Origin: Methylotenera sp.
GTDB lineage: Bacteria; Pseudomonadota; Gammaproteobacteria; Burkholderiales; Methylophilaceae
NCBI GenBank assembly: GCA_030682715.1
Contig: JAUXNQ010000016.1
Location: forward strand, 1 to 56,020
Reading direction: 5' to 3'
DNA: 56,020 nt
Shown here: in pieces, positions 5,326 to 16,789 of the stretch
How positions within the stretch are numbered: the first letter of the stretch is position 1
Layout of the letters: every line of letters starts with the position of its first letter
Program-made: the position numbers and the translations under genes
Notes under the pieces: model-generated
The model's database searches: none
Told to the model about the DNA's origin: nothing
What the model saw: only the letters and a program-made list of their open reading frames with translations

Positions 5326-5352
5326 CTAACGGCAGAAAACTTAATATATTTA
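5326..5352 (-). promoter_or_regulatory. Possible sigma-28 promoter for cheY
   Basis: On the minus strand the sequence reads TAAATATA, 11 bases, GCCGTTAG. Against the FliA consensus TAAAGTTT-N11-GCCGATAA this is 5/8 and 6/8, with the spacing exact. It lies about 80 bases before cheY. The match is modest and alternatives were not excluded. Confidence 0.3.
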
Positions 5353-6982: not shown

Positions 6983-7843
6983 CTATTTGCCTTTAGCTTG
7001 CTTAACATGTGTTTCAAGTTCAGCAAAGCCAGGACGCTCTGTTGAGTAAAGTACTTTACGACCAAACTCAACTGCAATAGCTGGCGCATAGCCATTAAGG
7101 CTTGCTAGCAATGTCACTTTAACCGTTTGATACATTTTAGTACTCTCTTCTAACTTCTGCTCTAACAGCCCAGAAAGCGGGCCAACGAAACCGTACGCAA
7201 GCAAAATACCTAAAAAAGTACCGACGAGTGCATGCCCAATCAAAACCCCCAACTCATTAGGTGGGAGATGCAAACTTTCCATTGTATGCACAACGCCCAT
7301 CACCGCAGCAACAATACCGAACGCTGGCAAACCATCGCCAAGTTTAGCAATACAATGCGCAGGCACATGTCCTTCCATATGGTGCGTTTCAATTTCATTA
7401 TCCATCAAATTCTCAACCTGGAACGCGTCCATATTGCCAGAAACCATTAGGCGCAAATAATCTGTAATAAACTCAATTAAGTGATGATCATGCAGCAATG
7501 CTGGATATTTACTAAATAAAGGACTTGCCTCAGGATTCTCAACATCATTCTCAATGGACATCATGCCATCTTTACGAATTTTGGTTAAGATTTCAAATAA
7601 CAGCGCGAGCAAATCCATATAAAGGGCCTTGTTAAATTTAGACCCTTTAAACACTGTAGGTAAAGCTTTAACTGTCGCTTTAATCGCTTTACTATCATTA
7701 CCTACAACAAAAGCACCTAACGCGCCGCCAAAAATCATCACAACCTCAAGCGGTTGCCATAAGCCACCTAAATGGCCACCAGCCATAGCATAGCCGCCAA
7801 AAACTGCTCCGCAGATAACGACGTACCCAATGATAACAAACAT
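6983..7843 (-). CDS. motA: Flagellar motor stator protein MotA
   Basis: This 286-residue inner-membrane proton-channel subunit has four membrane helices: two at residues 1-50 (with GGHLGGLWQPLEVVMIFGGALGAFVVG) and two at about 170-225 (GLPAFGIVAAVMGVVHTM and LIGHALVGTFLGILLAYGFVGPL). The large cytoplasmic loop between them carries the charged residues that touch FliG. The length matches the MotA type paired with MotB, rather than the shorter PomA/MotC type. The upstream 230 bases contain a TTGACA on the minus strand (7951-7956) without a convincing -10 box. Confidence 0.96.
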   Translation of the reverse strand: MFVIIGYVVICGAVFGGYAMAGGHLGGLWQPLEVVMIFGGALGAFVVGNDSKAIKATVKALPTVFKGSKFNKALYMDLLALLFEILTKIRKDGMMSIENDVENPEASPLFSKYPALLHDHHLIEFITDYLRLMVSGNMDAFQVENLMDNEIETHHMEGHVPAHCIAKLGDGLPAFGIVAAVMGVVHTMESLHLPPNELGVLIGHALVGTFLGILLAYGFVGPLSGLLEQKLEESTKMYQTVKVTLLASLNGYAPAIAVEFGRKVLYSTERPGFAELETHVKQAKGK

Positions 7844-8073
7844 ACTTTCGTACTCCAGATTTTGATACTACAATTTTCAAACATTCATAATAGATTAGCC
7901 AATATAACGTAAAGTAATTACTTGAATAAAGCAATTTTTTACAAATCCTCTGTCAACTCATGGAGCAACATGAATATTAAGCGATCTATAAAAATTTAAT
8001 ATTTATTAAATAATCATGCGCTTATCGAAAAAACCACTATGAGAAACCATTAAGATTTATAGCAATAAATTTA

Positions 8074-8895
8074 TTATATTTTCCACACGTATAACTTCTT
8101 TTCATTATTACCAGCCTGAATCACCTCTGTTGGCTCAACATTCTCAATCTCGAATTCATAGCTCACCAATAATGCCCCTGGTGGCATTTGAGCTTGTGCT
8201 TTTAGCCACAAATCAGACATTGCAGCAGGCGACAAATACGCAAAAATGAGATCATAGCTTGCAAAATCTAACAAACGATAATCACCAATTTTAAAATCTA
8301 CTTTTGAGTGTTTAAATTTTGCACGCAACTTGCTAATCAGCCAAGGCAGTGGTGCTATTTCAATTCCATCTACCAGGCAATCAGGTCTATTCTTCTCAAT
8401 ATACATAGACATACCACCGAAACCACTACCAATATCAATAATGCGCATAGACGGACGAGGGGGTATTAATGTTAAAACTTGTTGCCAAATTTTTGGTGTA
8501 GAGGGGAAAAATGGGACTTGCGTACGAAAAGTTGTCCAGTACAAACTGAGACTGAGCAAAAAACCTAACAAATAGAAGATACTTGGAATGTGCCACTGAG
8601 ACATGACCCAAACAGCCAATGGGAAGAAAAAATGTATCCAGCGCCACCATTTAGCCATATTCACTATATTAGCAAACCATACAGCTAGCGTAGCGTGCAT
8701 CAATACTAGAATCAACAGGTACCAAATTGATACAGAATCAAAAGCCCATAGTGATTGAGCTTTAATAATCCATGCAAATGATAAAACAAAACAAAAGGCA
8801 CTAGCCTGTATTAAAACAGCAAGCGTAGCTGGCTTTAGATTGAGTTTATTTAAAAATAACTGCAGCATTTGATGCCAATTTAATATTTGATACAT
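8074..8895 (-). CDS. Membrane-anchored class I SAM methyltransferase (FAM173-like)
   Basis: The first roughly 115 residues are hydrophobic and predict about four membrane helices. They are followed by a compact Rossmann methyltransferase domain. The SAM-binding glycine loop is IIDIGSGFGG, the acidic end of strand 2 is in DGIEIAPLP, and LIFAYLSPAAM is followed by PPGALLVSYEFEI. This arrangement (GSG loop, then an F/I-YLxP-x-M segment, then PG-xLVS) resembles the bacterial relatives of FAM173/ATPSc-KMT protein-lysine methyltransferases. The target is unknown. The gene sits between motA and flhC on the same strand, so a motility protein is a tempting but unproven substrate. ATG 8895 is preferred over the ATG nine codons upstream because AGGGA precedes it. 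Confidence 0.7.
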   Translation of the reverse strand: MYQILNWHQMLQLFLNKLNLKPATLAVLIQASAFCFVLSFAWIIKAQSLWAFDSVSIWYLLILVLMHATLAVWFANIVNMAKWWRWIHFFFPLAVWVMSQWHIPSIFYLLGFLLSLSLYWTTFRTQVPFFPSTPKIWQQVLTLIPPRPSMRIIDIGSGFGGMSMYIEKNRPDCLVDGIEIAPLPWLISKLRAKFKHSKVDFKIGDYRLLDFASYDLIFAYLSPAAMSDLWLKAQAQMPPGALLVSYEFEIENVEPTEVIQAGNNEKKLYVWKI

Positions 8896-9003
8896 ACTCG
8901 CATTCCCTGTAATGCAGAGCATGTACCGATGTTTTTATTATATTTTTTTGTACTATCGGGCTATCAAAACTTTAACACAGAAAAGGAACATTATAAGCAC
9001 CTA

Positions 9004-9582
9004 TTAGGCGCTTAAAGTTACAACTTTGTAAGTGAGCTCTTTTGCTTTTTTAGTTTTCCCAGCTCTTGACGGGACATGACATAAATTACAAACATAACTT
9101 CCATTTAAATCATAAGCGTTGACAATAAAATTGCCGCCACAACAACTGCAACTTTGCAACTTAAGCATTTTGCTCTCAACAAAACGTACCATCGTCCAAG
9201 CACGTGTCATAGATAAGACTGGCTCAACACCTTCTTCAGTCTCAACTTGCTGTAAATAAAGACTATAAGCCTTAATAATTGCATGAATACCAGTTTCTCC
9301 AGTGTAATCAAGCATAAACTTATAAATATTATAAAAAATGGAAGAGTGTATATTAGGCTGCCAAGTTAAGAACCAATCAGTTGAAAATGGCAACATACCC
9401 TTTGGAGGTGAGACACCCTTAAGCTCTTTATACAGTTTGATTAATCGCTCACGTGACAAGGTGGTTTGAGATTCCAGCAATTGCAATCTCGCACCTAGCT
9501 TAATCATCTGAATTGCTAGCTGAATCTGCTCTGACTCGTTTACTACACTTTTGGTAGAAGTCACTGGACTTTTATTTTCCAT
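9004..9582 (-). CDS. flhC: Flagellar master regulator subunit FlhC
   Basis: This is the DNA-binding half of the FlhD4C2 complex, which switches on class II flagellar genes (192 residues, normal length). The zinc site is visible as C145-x-x-C148 and C165-x-x-C168 in SCSCCGG and VCNLCHV. The core includes [21 protein letters not shown]-like sequence at about 48-67. It follows flhD by 40 bases, the usual order, and forms one transcription unit with it. The N-terminal 15 residues are a divergent Ser/Thr-rich extension. Confidence 0.95.
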
Positions 9583-9622
9583 GGTAGTTTCCTTCTTAGT
9601 TTTATCAACACTATCAACAAGC

Positions 9623-9940
9623 CTAAACTATGGTTTCAGCAACTTGCCCTGACATTAATATAGCAGTATGCAAGTGAGCTTGTGAGCGATCTTTTGTATA
9701 GTTAGTAAGCATACCTAAGATTGCACCATCATCAAAGCGAAACCTCGCCAGCATGACATTTGCACTGCTTAATTTTACCAACTGCATATTACTTAAACCT
9801 TCTAAAAGGTCTGCAATTTCACTGCTGATTCCCAAGCGGAAGATTGCGGTAGCTTTATCTGCCCGAATAAGCTGTTGCGCCAGCATTAAATAGTTGAGGT
9901 TGGCATCTCTGATTTCCGACATCAATTCTATTTCAGTCAT
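9623..9940 (-). CDS. flhD: Flagellar master regulator subunit FlhD
   Basis: This 105-residue helical protein is the partner that forms the FlhD4C2 ring with FlhC. Typical sequence: [29 protein letters not shown] at about residues 9-37, then a helix-turn-helix-like [20 protein letters not shown] near the C-terminus. Its promoter region is the unusual gap to flhB, which carries two minus-strand sigma-28 promoter matches and a long hairpin in the predicted leader. Confidence 0.94.
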
Positions 9941-10066
9941 TTTAATTTCCGATTCTTAATTTATTGCAACTACCAGAGCGTACAAACTATGGTTGAACAC
10001 ACTCTGAGCCTTTTCAGTGCAATTAACAAGAATGGGTTGTCGGTTTTTTTTGTGAGCGAACAAGAC

Positions 10067-10109
10067 AAGGCTGTGTAGGTGCTTGTCTTACAAGCACCTA
10101 CACAGCCTT
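10067..10109. repeat. Perfect 20-bp inverted repeat (hairpin) in the flhD upstream region
   Basis: The arms at 10067-10086 and 10090-10109 are perfectly complementary over 20 bp with a 3-base loop, CTT. Read on the plus strand it is followed by TTTTAAATT, terminator-like; on the minus strand no T-run follows. It would lie inside the leader of flhD transcripts started at the sigma-28 sites. The arm contains TGTAGGTGCTTG, which resembles the ends of the GTAGGG repeats at 53.6-55 kb. Confidence 0.85.
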
Positions 10110-10205
10110 TTAAATTACTTAAAATGTAACGCCTGTATTTAGAAAATAACTATCTATAAAATACAGATATAAAATTCTTAACTTTTTTAAATTCGATAAA
10201 AATCC

Positions 10206-10232
10206 TAAAGTTTTAACAATGTACACCGTTAA
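10206..10232 (+). promoter_or_regulatory. Sigma-28 (FliA) promoter candidate towards flhB
   Basis: TAAAGTTT, 11 bases, ACCGTTAA: 8/8 at -35 and 6/8 at -10 against TAAAGTTT-N11-GCCGATAA, with the exact spacing. It would give a leader of about 360 bases before flhB and would make the operon that contains fliA partly self-controlled. Confidence 0.6.
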
Positions 10233-10266
10233 TGTGTAGCCACACGTAACAAACCAACAAACACAT

Positions 10267-10293
10267 TTAACGGTATTACCTAACACACCTTTA
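10267..10293 (-). promoter_or_regulatory. Second, weaker sigma-28 promoter candidate towards flhD
   Basis: The minus strand reads TAAAGGTG, 11 bases, ACCGTTAA: 6/8 in each box. Its -35 box overlaps the -10 box of the stronger site at 10291-10317 by three bases, giving a tandem pair. Confidence 0.4.
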
Positions 10294-10317
10294 ACGGCTG
10301 CACTTTAAAAAACTTTA
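10291..10317 (-). promoter_or_regulatory. Strong sigma-28 (FliA) promoter candidate towards flhD
   Basis: The minus strand reads TAAAGTTT, 11 bases, GCCGTTAA: 15 of 16 positions match the FliA consensus with perfect spacing. Transcription would start near 10284 and run through the hairpin into flhD, about 345 bases downstream. Confidence 0.68.
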
Positions 10318-10598
10318 GGGTAATTTGTAAAAAAAATTGAAAAATTTAGATAAAATTTAATAAGCTATTGTTTTTAATATATATATTTATTAAATTATTT
10401 TGAAAATTAATTTAAAAATAGGATTACCAATACAAGCCAATCACTCCAAATCATACAAATGCAGTAGGAAAGCAGGGTTTTCACCTGCTTATTCTCAAGA
10501 TGTAAGTTTGTCATTTTAATTAATAATGTAGTTAATTAAAAAAGTAGTTAATTTTCGAAGTTAGACTTAATGGCATTATTTAAGTACTAGGACGCATA

Positions 10599-11786
10599 AT
10601 GGCTGAAGAAAGCGATTTAGAGAAAACGGAAGAGGCCTCCCCCAAGCGCTTAGAAAAAGCGCGTGAGGAAGGTGACGTTCCACGCTCTCGCGAGCTTGCA
10701 ACAGTAACAGTATTGCTGGCAGCTGGTTTTTCTATGCTAATGATGGGCGGCCAGTTAGGTGACGCCTTAAAAAAAACCATGAGCGCTGGCCTAACGCTTG
10801 AGCGTGCCTATGCTTATGATCCTATGATTCTTTTAATGAAAATATCAGATAATATTTTCAATCTGTTAATAGCTTTCTTACCGTTAGCACTGGTTTTATT
10901 TGTGGTTGCCATCGCTTCGCCAGCACTAATTGGCGGATGGGTATTTAGCGAAAAAGCACTTGCGCCAAAATTTGGAAAGCTAAATCCAATTAAAGGCTTG
11001 AGCAATATGTTTTCCAAAAACTCTGTTGCTGAGTTGGTTAAATCTATTGGAAAAGCAATATTAGTAGGCGGGGTTTCTTATATTGTCATCGTCAATGACA
11101 TGGAGTCTATTCTTTCACTTTCATTGATGCCTTTAAGTCAAAGTATTGCTGAAGTAATCGATTTATTGCTGGTTAGCTTTTTAGCAATCGTTAGCGTTCT
11201 GGTTTTTATCGCAGCCATTGATGTGCCTTTTCAGCTATATCAATACGCTGAAAAACTGAAAATGACTAAAGAAGAAGTGAAGCGCGAATCTAGAGAATCA
11301 GATGGTAACCCTGAAATTAAAGCAAGAATTCGTCAGCAACAACGTGAAATGTCTAGGCGCCGAATGATGTCTGAGATTCCCAATGCTGATGTCGTCATCA
11401 CTAACCCTACTCATTATGCTGTTGCTATTCAATATAAAGAAGGCGGCATGCGCGCCCCTGTTGTCGTGGCTAAGGGTGCAGATGCGGTTGCATTGAAAAT
11501 ACGGGAAGTTGCTGATGAGCACAAAATCCTTATCGTCGAATCGCCTAAGCTGGCACGTGCAATATATGCACACACTGAACTAGAGCACGAGATCCCTGAG
11601 GCTTTATACACAGCAGTCGCTGAAATACTGGCTTACGTGTTTCAAATGCGTCTATTCAAAAAAGATGGTGGTTATCAACCAGAAGTACCAAGCATATTAC
11701 CAGTACCTGATGAATTAGACCCTCATAGCTTAATGCCACTTCGTGGGGTAGACGACACACCTATTGAATCTGGAGTTACCGCCTAA
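10599..11786 (+). CDS. flhB: Flagellar type III export switch protein FlhB
   Basis: This inner-membrane export-gate protein (395 residues) sets the change from rod/hook to filament substrates. It has an acidic, charged N-terminus (EKTEEASPKRLEKAREEGDV), four membrane helices at about 33-50, 88-112, 150-165 and 186-208, and a cytoplasmic domain with the self-cleavage motif N269-P270-T271-H272. The length is slightly above that of E. coli FlhB (382). AGGA lies six bases before the ATG. Its stop overlaps the flhA start by one base. It is the first gene of the flhB-flhA-flhF-flhG-fliA-motC-motD run. Confidence 0.97.
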   Translation: MAEESDLEKTEEASPKRLEKAREEGDVPRSRELATVTVLLAAGFSMLMMGGQLGDALKKTMSAGLTLERAYAYDPMILLMKISDNIFNLLIAFLPLALVLFVVAIASPALIGGWVFSEKALAPKFGKLNPIKGLSNMFSKNSVAELVKSIGKAILVGGVSYIVIVNDMESILSLSLMPLSQSIAEVIDLLLVSFLAIVSVLVFIAAIDVPFQLYQYAEKLKMTKEEVKRESRESDGNPEIKARIRQQQREMSRRRMMSEIPNADVVITNPTHYAVAIQYKEGGMRAPVVVAKGADAVALKIREVADEHKILIVESPKLARAIYAHTELEHEIPEALYTAVAEILAYVFQMRLFKKDGGYQPEVPSILPVPDELDPHSLMPLRGVDDTPIESGVTA

Positions 11787-16054: not shown

Positions 16055-16789
16055 ATGTACACAGCGCATGGGAAAAAAGATCAAAAAGACGTTTTGCTGG
16101 ATCAGCATGCTATCTTAGTTAAAAAACTGGCCTATCAATTAAAAGCCAAGCTTCCACCTAGCGTAGAGCTTGATGATTTGATACAAGCGGGCATGATGGG
16201 CCTACTGGATGCGGTTAATCGCTATGAAGATACACACGGCGCCCAATTTGAGACATATGCCGCACAAAGAATAAGAGGCTCAATGCTTGATGAGTTACGT
16301 AGCTCAGATTGGTTACCCCGTAGTATTCGTAAAAACATGCGCGATGTTGAGCACGCAATCAGTCAGTTAGAACAACAGTTAGGCCAAGCCCCTACTGAAA
16401 ACGATGTTGCCAAGAAGCTTAATTTATCTCTCGCCCAATACCATGAAATGCTTGGTGATTGTAGTGGGCACCAACTTGTTTACTACGAAGACTTTCATGA
16501 AGCTGACAGTGGAGAACACTTTTTAGATCGCTTCCAAACCGATCACAATAGCGATCCAATTAAAGGTTTGCTCCTTGGTGACTTCAAAGACGCACTGATT
16601 GCTGCGATAGACTCATTACCTGAACGAGAAAAGATTTTGCTAGGTTTATATTACGAACAAGAATTAAACTTAAAAGAAATTGGTGCGGTAATGAGTGTTT
16701 CAGAATCGCGCGTATGTCAATTACATAGTCAGGCAGTCGCTAGGCTACGTGCTAACTTAAGAGAGAAGTCATGGACTGGGGCAGCTTAA
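16055..16789 (+). CDS. fliA: Flagellar sigma factor FliA (sigma-28)
   Basis: This 244-residue sigma-70-family factor transcribes late flagellar and chemotaxis genes. Region 2 contains VELDDLIQAGMMGLLDAVNRY at about 38-58 and FETYAAQRIRGSMLDELR at about 67-84. Region 3 follows with RSIRKNMRDVEHAI. Region 4 holds the helix-turn-helix LNLKEIGAVMSVSESRVCQL near 207-226. These sequences fit FliA rather than RpoD or RpoH. The downstream motC start lies 19 bases inside the 3' end. Matches to its own recognition sequence lie upstream of both flhB and flhD. Confidence 0.96.
   Translation: MYTAHGKKDQKDVLLDQHAILVKKLAYQLKAKLPPSVELDDLIQAGMMGLLDAVNRYEDTHGAQFETYAAQRIRGSMLDELRSSDWLPRSIRKNMRDVEHAISQLEQQLGQAPTENDVAKKLNLSLAQYHEMLGDCSGHQLVYYEDFHEADSGEHFLDRFQTDHNSDPIKGLLLGDFKDALIAAIDSLPEREKILLGLYYEQELNLKEIGAVMSVSESRVCQLHSQAVARLRANLREKSWTGAA

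Follow-up and report, generated by a model that had tools for sequence, protein, structure and literature searches.

In the methylotroph Methylotenera sp. and in many related betaproteobacteria, the master regulator operon flhDC appears, from the DNA preceding it, to carry a promoter of the late sigma factor FliA (sigma-28), which would turn a one-way cascade into a loop. In enterobacteria, flagellar control with FlhDC on top is taught as a one-way hierarchy, in which flhDC stands above FliA and is read by sigma-70, and flhB belongs to class II. For the 56,020-nucleotide stretch analyzed here (the window), we consider it probable that two FliA promoters face each other between flhD and flhB, the minus-strand one serving flhDC and, by read-through, mot-che, and the plus-strand one serving flhB-fliA, with early starts made by promoters other than sigma-28 and with late positive feedback as the outcome. 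The direct basis of this explanation consists of the sequence, its conservation, the exactness of the spacers, and the likeness of the sites to other sigma-28-like sites of the genome.

Putative sigma-28 promoters between flhD and flhB

The sites found in the flhD-flhB gap and the genes on either side of it are as follows.

10291..10317, minus strand: putative sigma-28 promoter toward flhDC (minus site); 15/16, -35 box TAAAGTTT at 10310-10317, 11-base spacer (N11), -10 box GCCGTTAA at 10291-10298
10206..10232, plus strand: putative sigma-28 promoter toward flhB-flhA-flhF-flhG-fliA (plus site); 14/16, -35 box TAAAGTTT, N11, -10 box ACCGTTAA
10267..10293, minus strand: third match, overlapping the minus site; 12/16, N11, matrix score 13.7
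9623..9940, minus strand: flhD (PF05247, 6.4e-42)
9004..9582, minus strand: flhC (PF05280, 2.4e-88)
8074..8922, minus strand: methyltransferase-like ORF between flhC and motA (PF13649, 1.3e-4, below its cut-off)
6983..7843, minus strand: motA (PF20560/PF01618)
from motA down to about 1751, minus strand: motB and che genes (from the ORF list, named by eye)
10599..11786, plus strand: flhB (PF01312, 1.2e-129), first of flhB-flhA-flhF-flhG-fliA-motC-motD
16055..16789, plus strand: fliA (sigma-28; Sigma70 regions 2, 3 and 4, identity as FliA from context)

The consensus boxes TAAAGTTT and GCCGATAA were taken from an earlier sequence-only reading of this DNA, and the E. coli sites share their form. 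The three matches listed in that reading, with their coordinates, 11-base spacers and scores of 15/16, 12/16 and 14/16, were all borne out by the sequence. The presence of the sites is thereby confirmed, and from it we infer their action as promoters. By matrix, the minus and plus sites scored 19.1 and 18.0, respectively, which were the two best scores of the window and the only ones above 14. With the start set 8 bases after the -10 box, transcription would begin near 10283 (minus) and near 10240 (plus). The cognate sigma factor gene fliA is present in the same window, and sites of the same form occur elsewhere in the genome.

Matches with at most three mismatches numbered five in the window, against 0.87 expected, and none of 100 shuffles reached five. 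The pattern TAAAG-N15-CCGNTAA occurred at six places in the 2.45 Mb genome, three of them within the 658-base flhD-flhB gap, and the minus site was the sole one-mismatch match and the best in the genome. At most two mismatches were found at 10 places genome-wide: two lie in the gap, five precede flgM-, flgK-, fliC-, fliD- and flaG-like ORFs (the fliD-like one has its site inside the ORF ahead of it), a further one stands before a small ORF and a PAS-like protein, and two lie inside other ORFs. These five names were assigned by eye, and the flgK-like ORF was also matched by PF00460 (rod family). The scoring matrix was built from seven genome sites outside the gap, namely those five plus two with three mismatches each, one of them a second site upstream of fliC and the other upstream of an ORF positioned like flgA.

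At up to three mismatches the genome showed no excess (55 matches against 58 for a reversed control pattern), and the case therefore rests on the best-ranked sites and on conservation, not on raw counts. This missing excess, together with the low GC content of the gap (29%) and a -10 box that here reads CCGTTAA and not CCGATAA, speaks for regarding the motifs as chance matches in AT-rich DNA or as sites of another DNA-binding protein. The recurrence of the same form at other sites of the genome makes such an origin very improbable, as do the conservation, the exactness of the spacer, the bias toward one strand and the distribution across families described below.

Conservation of the sites in Methylophilaceae

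The best 80 of 113 flhD loci, chosen by FlhD similarity, were fetched, and 35 of them have a divergent adjoining flhB; with the window, these gave 36 flhD-flhB gaps. A site toward flhD with a score of at least 13 and an exact N11 spacer was found in 33 of the 36 gaps, and one toward flhB in 18. Spacers other than N11 gave zero to three such sites, except toward flhD at N10 (nine) and N18 (eight), where the same AT-rich stretch may have been read in a shifted register. With a score of at least 12 and spacers of 10 to 12 bases, the flhD and flhB sites were found in 34/36 and 25/36 gaps (3.9% and 2.8% in shuffles). The flhB site is accordingly weak or absent in 11 to 18 of the 36 gaps, which counts against the proposed pair of promoters.

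Identities were taken from a motif-free MAFFT alignment of the gaps, in which the gap mean was 0.53. In the minus site, the -35 box reached 0.97, second among 570 eight-base windows, and the -10 box 0.80, with 0.48 in the spacer; the corresponding values for the plus site were 0.85, 0.71 and 0.42. The sequence-only reading had placed FliA promoters ahead of flhDC and of the flhB-fliA operon, to be checked by alignment with relatives, and in these relatives both the boxes and the spacer length are kept.

The third match had been read as a second flhD promoter whose boxes overlap those of the first, so that only one could be used at a time. A score of at least 12 was found at its position in only four of the 36 gaps, the window included, and one of at least 10 in seven, and its own -35 columns showed 0.33 identity. 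We therefore abandoned the either/or arrangement, and the third match probably does not act as a separate promoter.

Distribution of the flhD site beyond the family

Among the 45 other fetched loci within the best 80 of 113, the flhD site scored at least 13 in 34, and the misses include three loci with less than 360 bases of upstream DNA. In the part of the same set from L035 on, where no locus is named Methylophilaceae, it was found in 33 of 38. The site was seen in Herminiimonas, Undibacterium, Noviherbaspirillum, Massilia and Sulfuriferula, with one Noviherbaspirillum genome lacking it.

An order-wide sample of 103 flhD loci from 99 genomes, less biased than the 80 loci picked by FlhD similarity, had the site in 35 loci, against four on the opposite strand and 0.6% in shuffles. 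All 35 have the N11 spacer; N10 gave seven and other lengths zero or one of 103. The site was frequent in families f1 (5/5), f41 (5/5), f33 (7/8), f7 (6/9) and f24 (5/8), sparse in f15 (2/8) and f4 (1/8), and not found in f30 (0/9), f48 (0/7), f20 (0/5), f45 (0/4) and f22 (0/4), counts in which the AT-trained matrix may miss sites of GC-rich genomes. Its occurrences are concentrated in some families, and the flhD site is thus of wide but not universal occurrence. In open-access literature, searched by titles and the starts of abstracts, we found no report of a sigma-28 promoter on flhDC in betaproteobacteria; a 2018 paper is said to deal with intragenic FliA promoters.

Downstream genes and the putative late mot-che promoter

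On the plus-strand side, the neighbors from flhB to motD overlap or lie within about 30 bases of each other in the ORF list. On the flhD side, the best sigma-28 score between flhD and motA in the window was 7.8. Among the 32 Methylophilaceae loci with a downstream motA, the flhD-to-motA stretch gave 28 with the flhD site only, one with both sites and three with neither, and a separate sigma-28 site in the 300 bases before motA was found in none (0/32).

The latter result favors a different assignment, in which the minus promoter serves late mot-che or a leader RNA and flhDC is merely carried along with no real feedback, the sigma-28 transcript being poorly translated for FlhD or ending partly at a leader hairpin. 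The use in E. coli of a FliA promoter inside flhC for motAB-cheAW, listed in PMC4183435, and the release of the sigma-28 small RNA MotR from the E. coli motAB-cheAW leader, according to PMC10578931, point the same way. Against it, 39 named loci from outside the family comprised 33 with the flhD site and 10 with a site scoring at least 13 just before motA, nine of the latter also having the flhD site, which thus persists at loci with a separate motA site. We judge this assignment rather unlikely. In 52 loci of the order sample, the flhD site occurred in 16, a motA site in 13, both in four and neither in 27. These tallies suggest that the late mot-che promoter has moved in evolution, and from lineage to lineage it seems to stand upstream of flhDC, inside flhC or before motA.

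Read-through from the minus site to mot-che is not assured, because the simple scan for terminators gave three terminator-like sites on the flhD strand in 7700-9700, one of them inside flhC (1.2 in shuffles of both strands). The internal gaps of mot-che, of 117-230 bases, leave room for other promoters.

Some further features of these loci were recorded. The distance from flhD to the start of motA is 1.8-2.4 kb in most named relatives, enough to hold a gene between flhC and motA. A weak sigma-28-like site (score 10.2) lies before cheY at 5326-5352 (minus). The genome has a second flhD gene, L192 (G000:C49:4922-5224), preceded by a best sigma-28 score of 6.8, and no flhC was found in the stretch surrounding it.

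Leader hairpin, candidate FlhDC box and possible early promoters

Two further elements were located in the gap.

10067..10109, minus strand: strong hairpin with a 3-base loop in the flhD leader; core kept in 36/36 gaps
10468..10527, plus strand: candidate FlhDC box and -10 (TAATAAT), as a class II promoter of flhB; block 10468-10492 at 0.72 identity

From the start predicted for the minus site, the flhD leader would be about 340 bases long. Its hairpin core, TTTGTAAGACAAA, is nearly constant; in 32 of the 36 gaps it is found 115-131 bases upstream of the start of flhD, and in several Oxalobacteraceae a comparable core begins 147-153 bases upstream of flhD. The 17 pairs of the stem are mostly kept, 11 of them with standard pairs changed on both sides, for instance in Methylobacillus. 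The hairpin had no match in Rfam at the gathering score, and the Rfam scan as a whole gave only sub-threshold matches. In the simple scan the hairpin was terminator-like on the flhD strand, where the gap has four such sites against 0.4 in shuffles. The hairpin is a candidate for a new leader RNA or for the operator of an RcsB-like regulator, whose sites its core resembles.

Such a covarying, terminator-like leader hairpin again favors the assignment of the minus promoter to mot-che or a leader RNA, in opposition to which the 10 bases after the stem are not T-rich in most relatives (one to seven T, without a long T run). A Salmonella study, reportedly and going by its title, describes the sigma-28 transcript of fliA as translationally inert, which also counts for that assignment. 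The feedback account is weakest in requiring FlhD protein to be made from a sigma-28 transcript whose leader is long and structured.

On the flhB side, the block GAAAG..CACC...TTATTC with TAATAAT resembles, by eye, blocks of the same genome before flgB (L241) and fliE (L236), and is a candidate for the FlhDC box of this genus. Given the conservation of this block and its likeness to those before flgB and fliE, flhB would probably combine class II with class III control. A first regular expression written for the block retrieved those of flhB and flgB and missed that of fliE, which was seen by eye, and a second, too strict, matched none of the 36 gaps; the block therefore rests on the alignment. 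Thus, the view of flhB as a FliA target held in that a FliA-type site is kept, yet it was incomplete, the FlhDC-box-like block making flhB probably class II and III.

As for the early start of flhDC, a sigma-70 promoter scan of 9900-10650 gave two candidates for flhD, no more than shuffles did (2.8). The blocks 9998-10006 and 10036-10045 near the flhD start (family consensus GTACTTTG and TTGTCGGTT, plus strand) are among the most conserved of the gap and are possibly an early flhDC promoter or a regulator site.

Arrangement of the two putative promoters

The sequence-only reading had called the promoters divergent. This applies to the genes; since the plus promoter is the left-hand one of the two, the promoters themselves face each other, and 58 bases separate their -10 boxes in the window. 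The predicted transcripts would overlap at their 5' ends.

10240..10283, no strand: stretch of about 44 bases that both sigma-28 transcripts would cover with their 5' ends, from the site positions

The footprint of the polymerase reaches to about +20, and at this spacing two polymerases would just fit nose to nose. From the sequence, the geometry makes interference possible, and an excludon-like switch may be considered, in which colliding polymerases and pairing 5' ends make flhDC-mot-che and flhB-fliA alternate instead of being transcribed together. Among the 22 gaps in which both sites score at least 12, the -10 boxes are 58-67 bases apart in 16, although the DNA between them has low identity (0.36, MAFFT), and this favors such a switch beside the facing geometry itself. 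Overlapping 5' ends have a precedent in Listeria flagellar genes (PMC7154746), and an antisense RNA at E. coli flhD is mentioned in PMC9600491. The remaining six gaps have the boxes 89-131 bases apart, however, the plus site is lost or weak in many relatives, and a constant distance may be inherited. On balance, alternation of this kind seems distinctly unlikely.

Proposed regulatory loop

Taken together, the preferred reading is that of two facing FliA promoters with late positive feedback. Early promoters other than sigma-28 would start flhDC, and FlhDC would then start flhB-fliA through the candidate FlhDC-box promoter. Once free of FlgM, FliA would transcribe mot-che together with flhDC, and its own operon, and the outcome would be late positive feedback on the master regulator flhDC. 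The promoter activity, start points, read-through to motA, gating by FlgM and net sign of the feedback in this scheme are what we infer. The sequence-only reading had the sites and the contrast with E. coli right, and missed the facing geometry, the hairpin, the mot-che genes behind flhDC and the wider spread.

If true, a sigma-28 promoter on flhDC itself, shared by several families, would close the hierarchy into a direct positive loop with hook completion as its gate; bistable or latched motility would then be predicted for many environmental and plant-associated bacteria. More tentatively, and less likely than not, a broad betaproteobacterial loop that latches the motile state after hook completion might be combined in Methylophilaceae with a nose-to-nose, interference-coupled switch between flhDC-mot-che and flhB-fliA.

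Comparison with known systems

The enterobacterial class I pattern, with no sigma-28 site before flhD, does not apply to the window, where the score is 19.1 against a best of 5.3 in the 800 bases before flhD of E. coli K-12, IS1 element included. The native E. coli DNA flanking IS1 scored 2.5 and 1.9, and the contrast drawn earlier with E. coli, which has no sigma-28 site before its flhD (best 2.5 in native DNA), therefore stands. A class-wide FlhD search gave matches in 14 of 276 genomes, eight of them above the cut-off, a number too small to extend the comparison past E. coli.

The matrix recovered the known E. coli FliA promoter inside flhC with a score of 20.4. According to PMC4183435, that promoter is likewise a sigma-28 site of the same consensus in the flhDC-mot-che locus and serves mot-che. 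It lies inside flhC, after flhD, and E. coli flhDC is therefore not transcribed from it, whereas here the site lies before flhD. Action of FliA on its own operon is also shared with E. coli and Salmonella, since fliAYZ is among the E. coli FliA sites in PMC4183435 and FliA autoregulation is stated in PMC10963238. Here, in contrast, fliA is in the flhB-flhA-flhF-flhG operon, whose putative promoter faces another sigma-28 promoter. In Salmonella, as described in PMC3946378, a product of the fliA operon likewise raises flhDC late; that FliZ-HilD loop is indirect, whereas here the sigma factor itself would act directly on flhDC. Finally, the excludon of the Listeria mogR locus also has opposed flagellar transcripts with overlapping 5' ends, but there, according to PMC7154746, a long antisense leader running across flagellar genes depends on SigB, while in the present case a single sigma factor seems to have both promoters as targets and the overlap would be about 44 bases.
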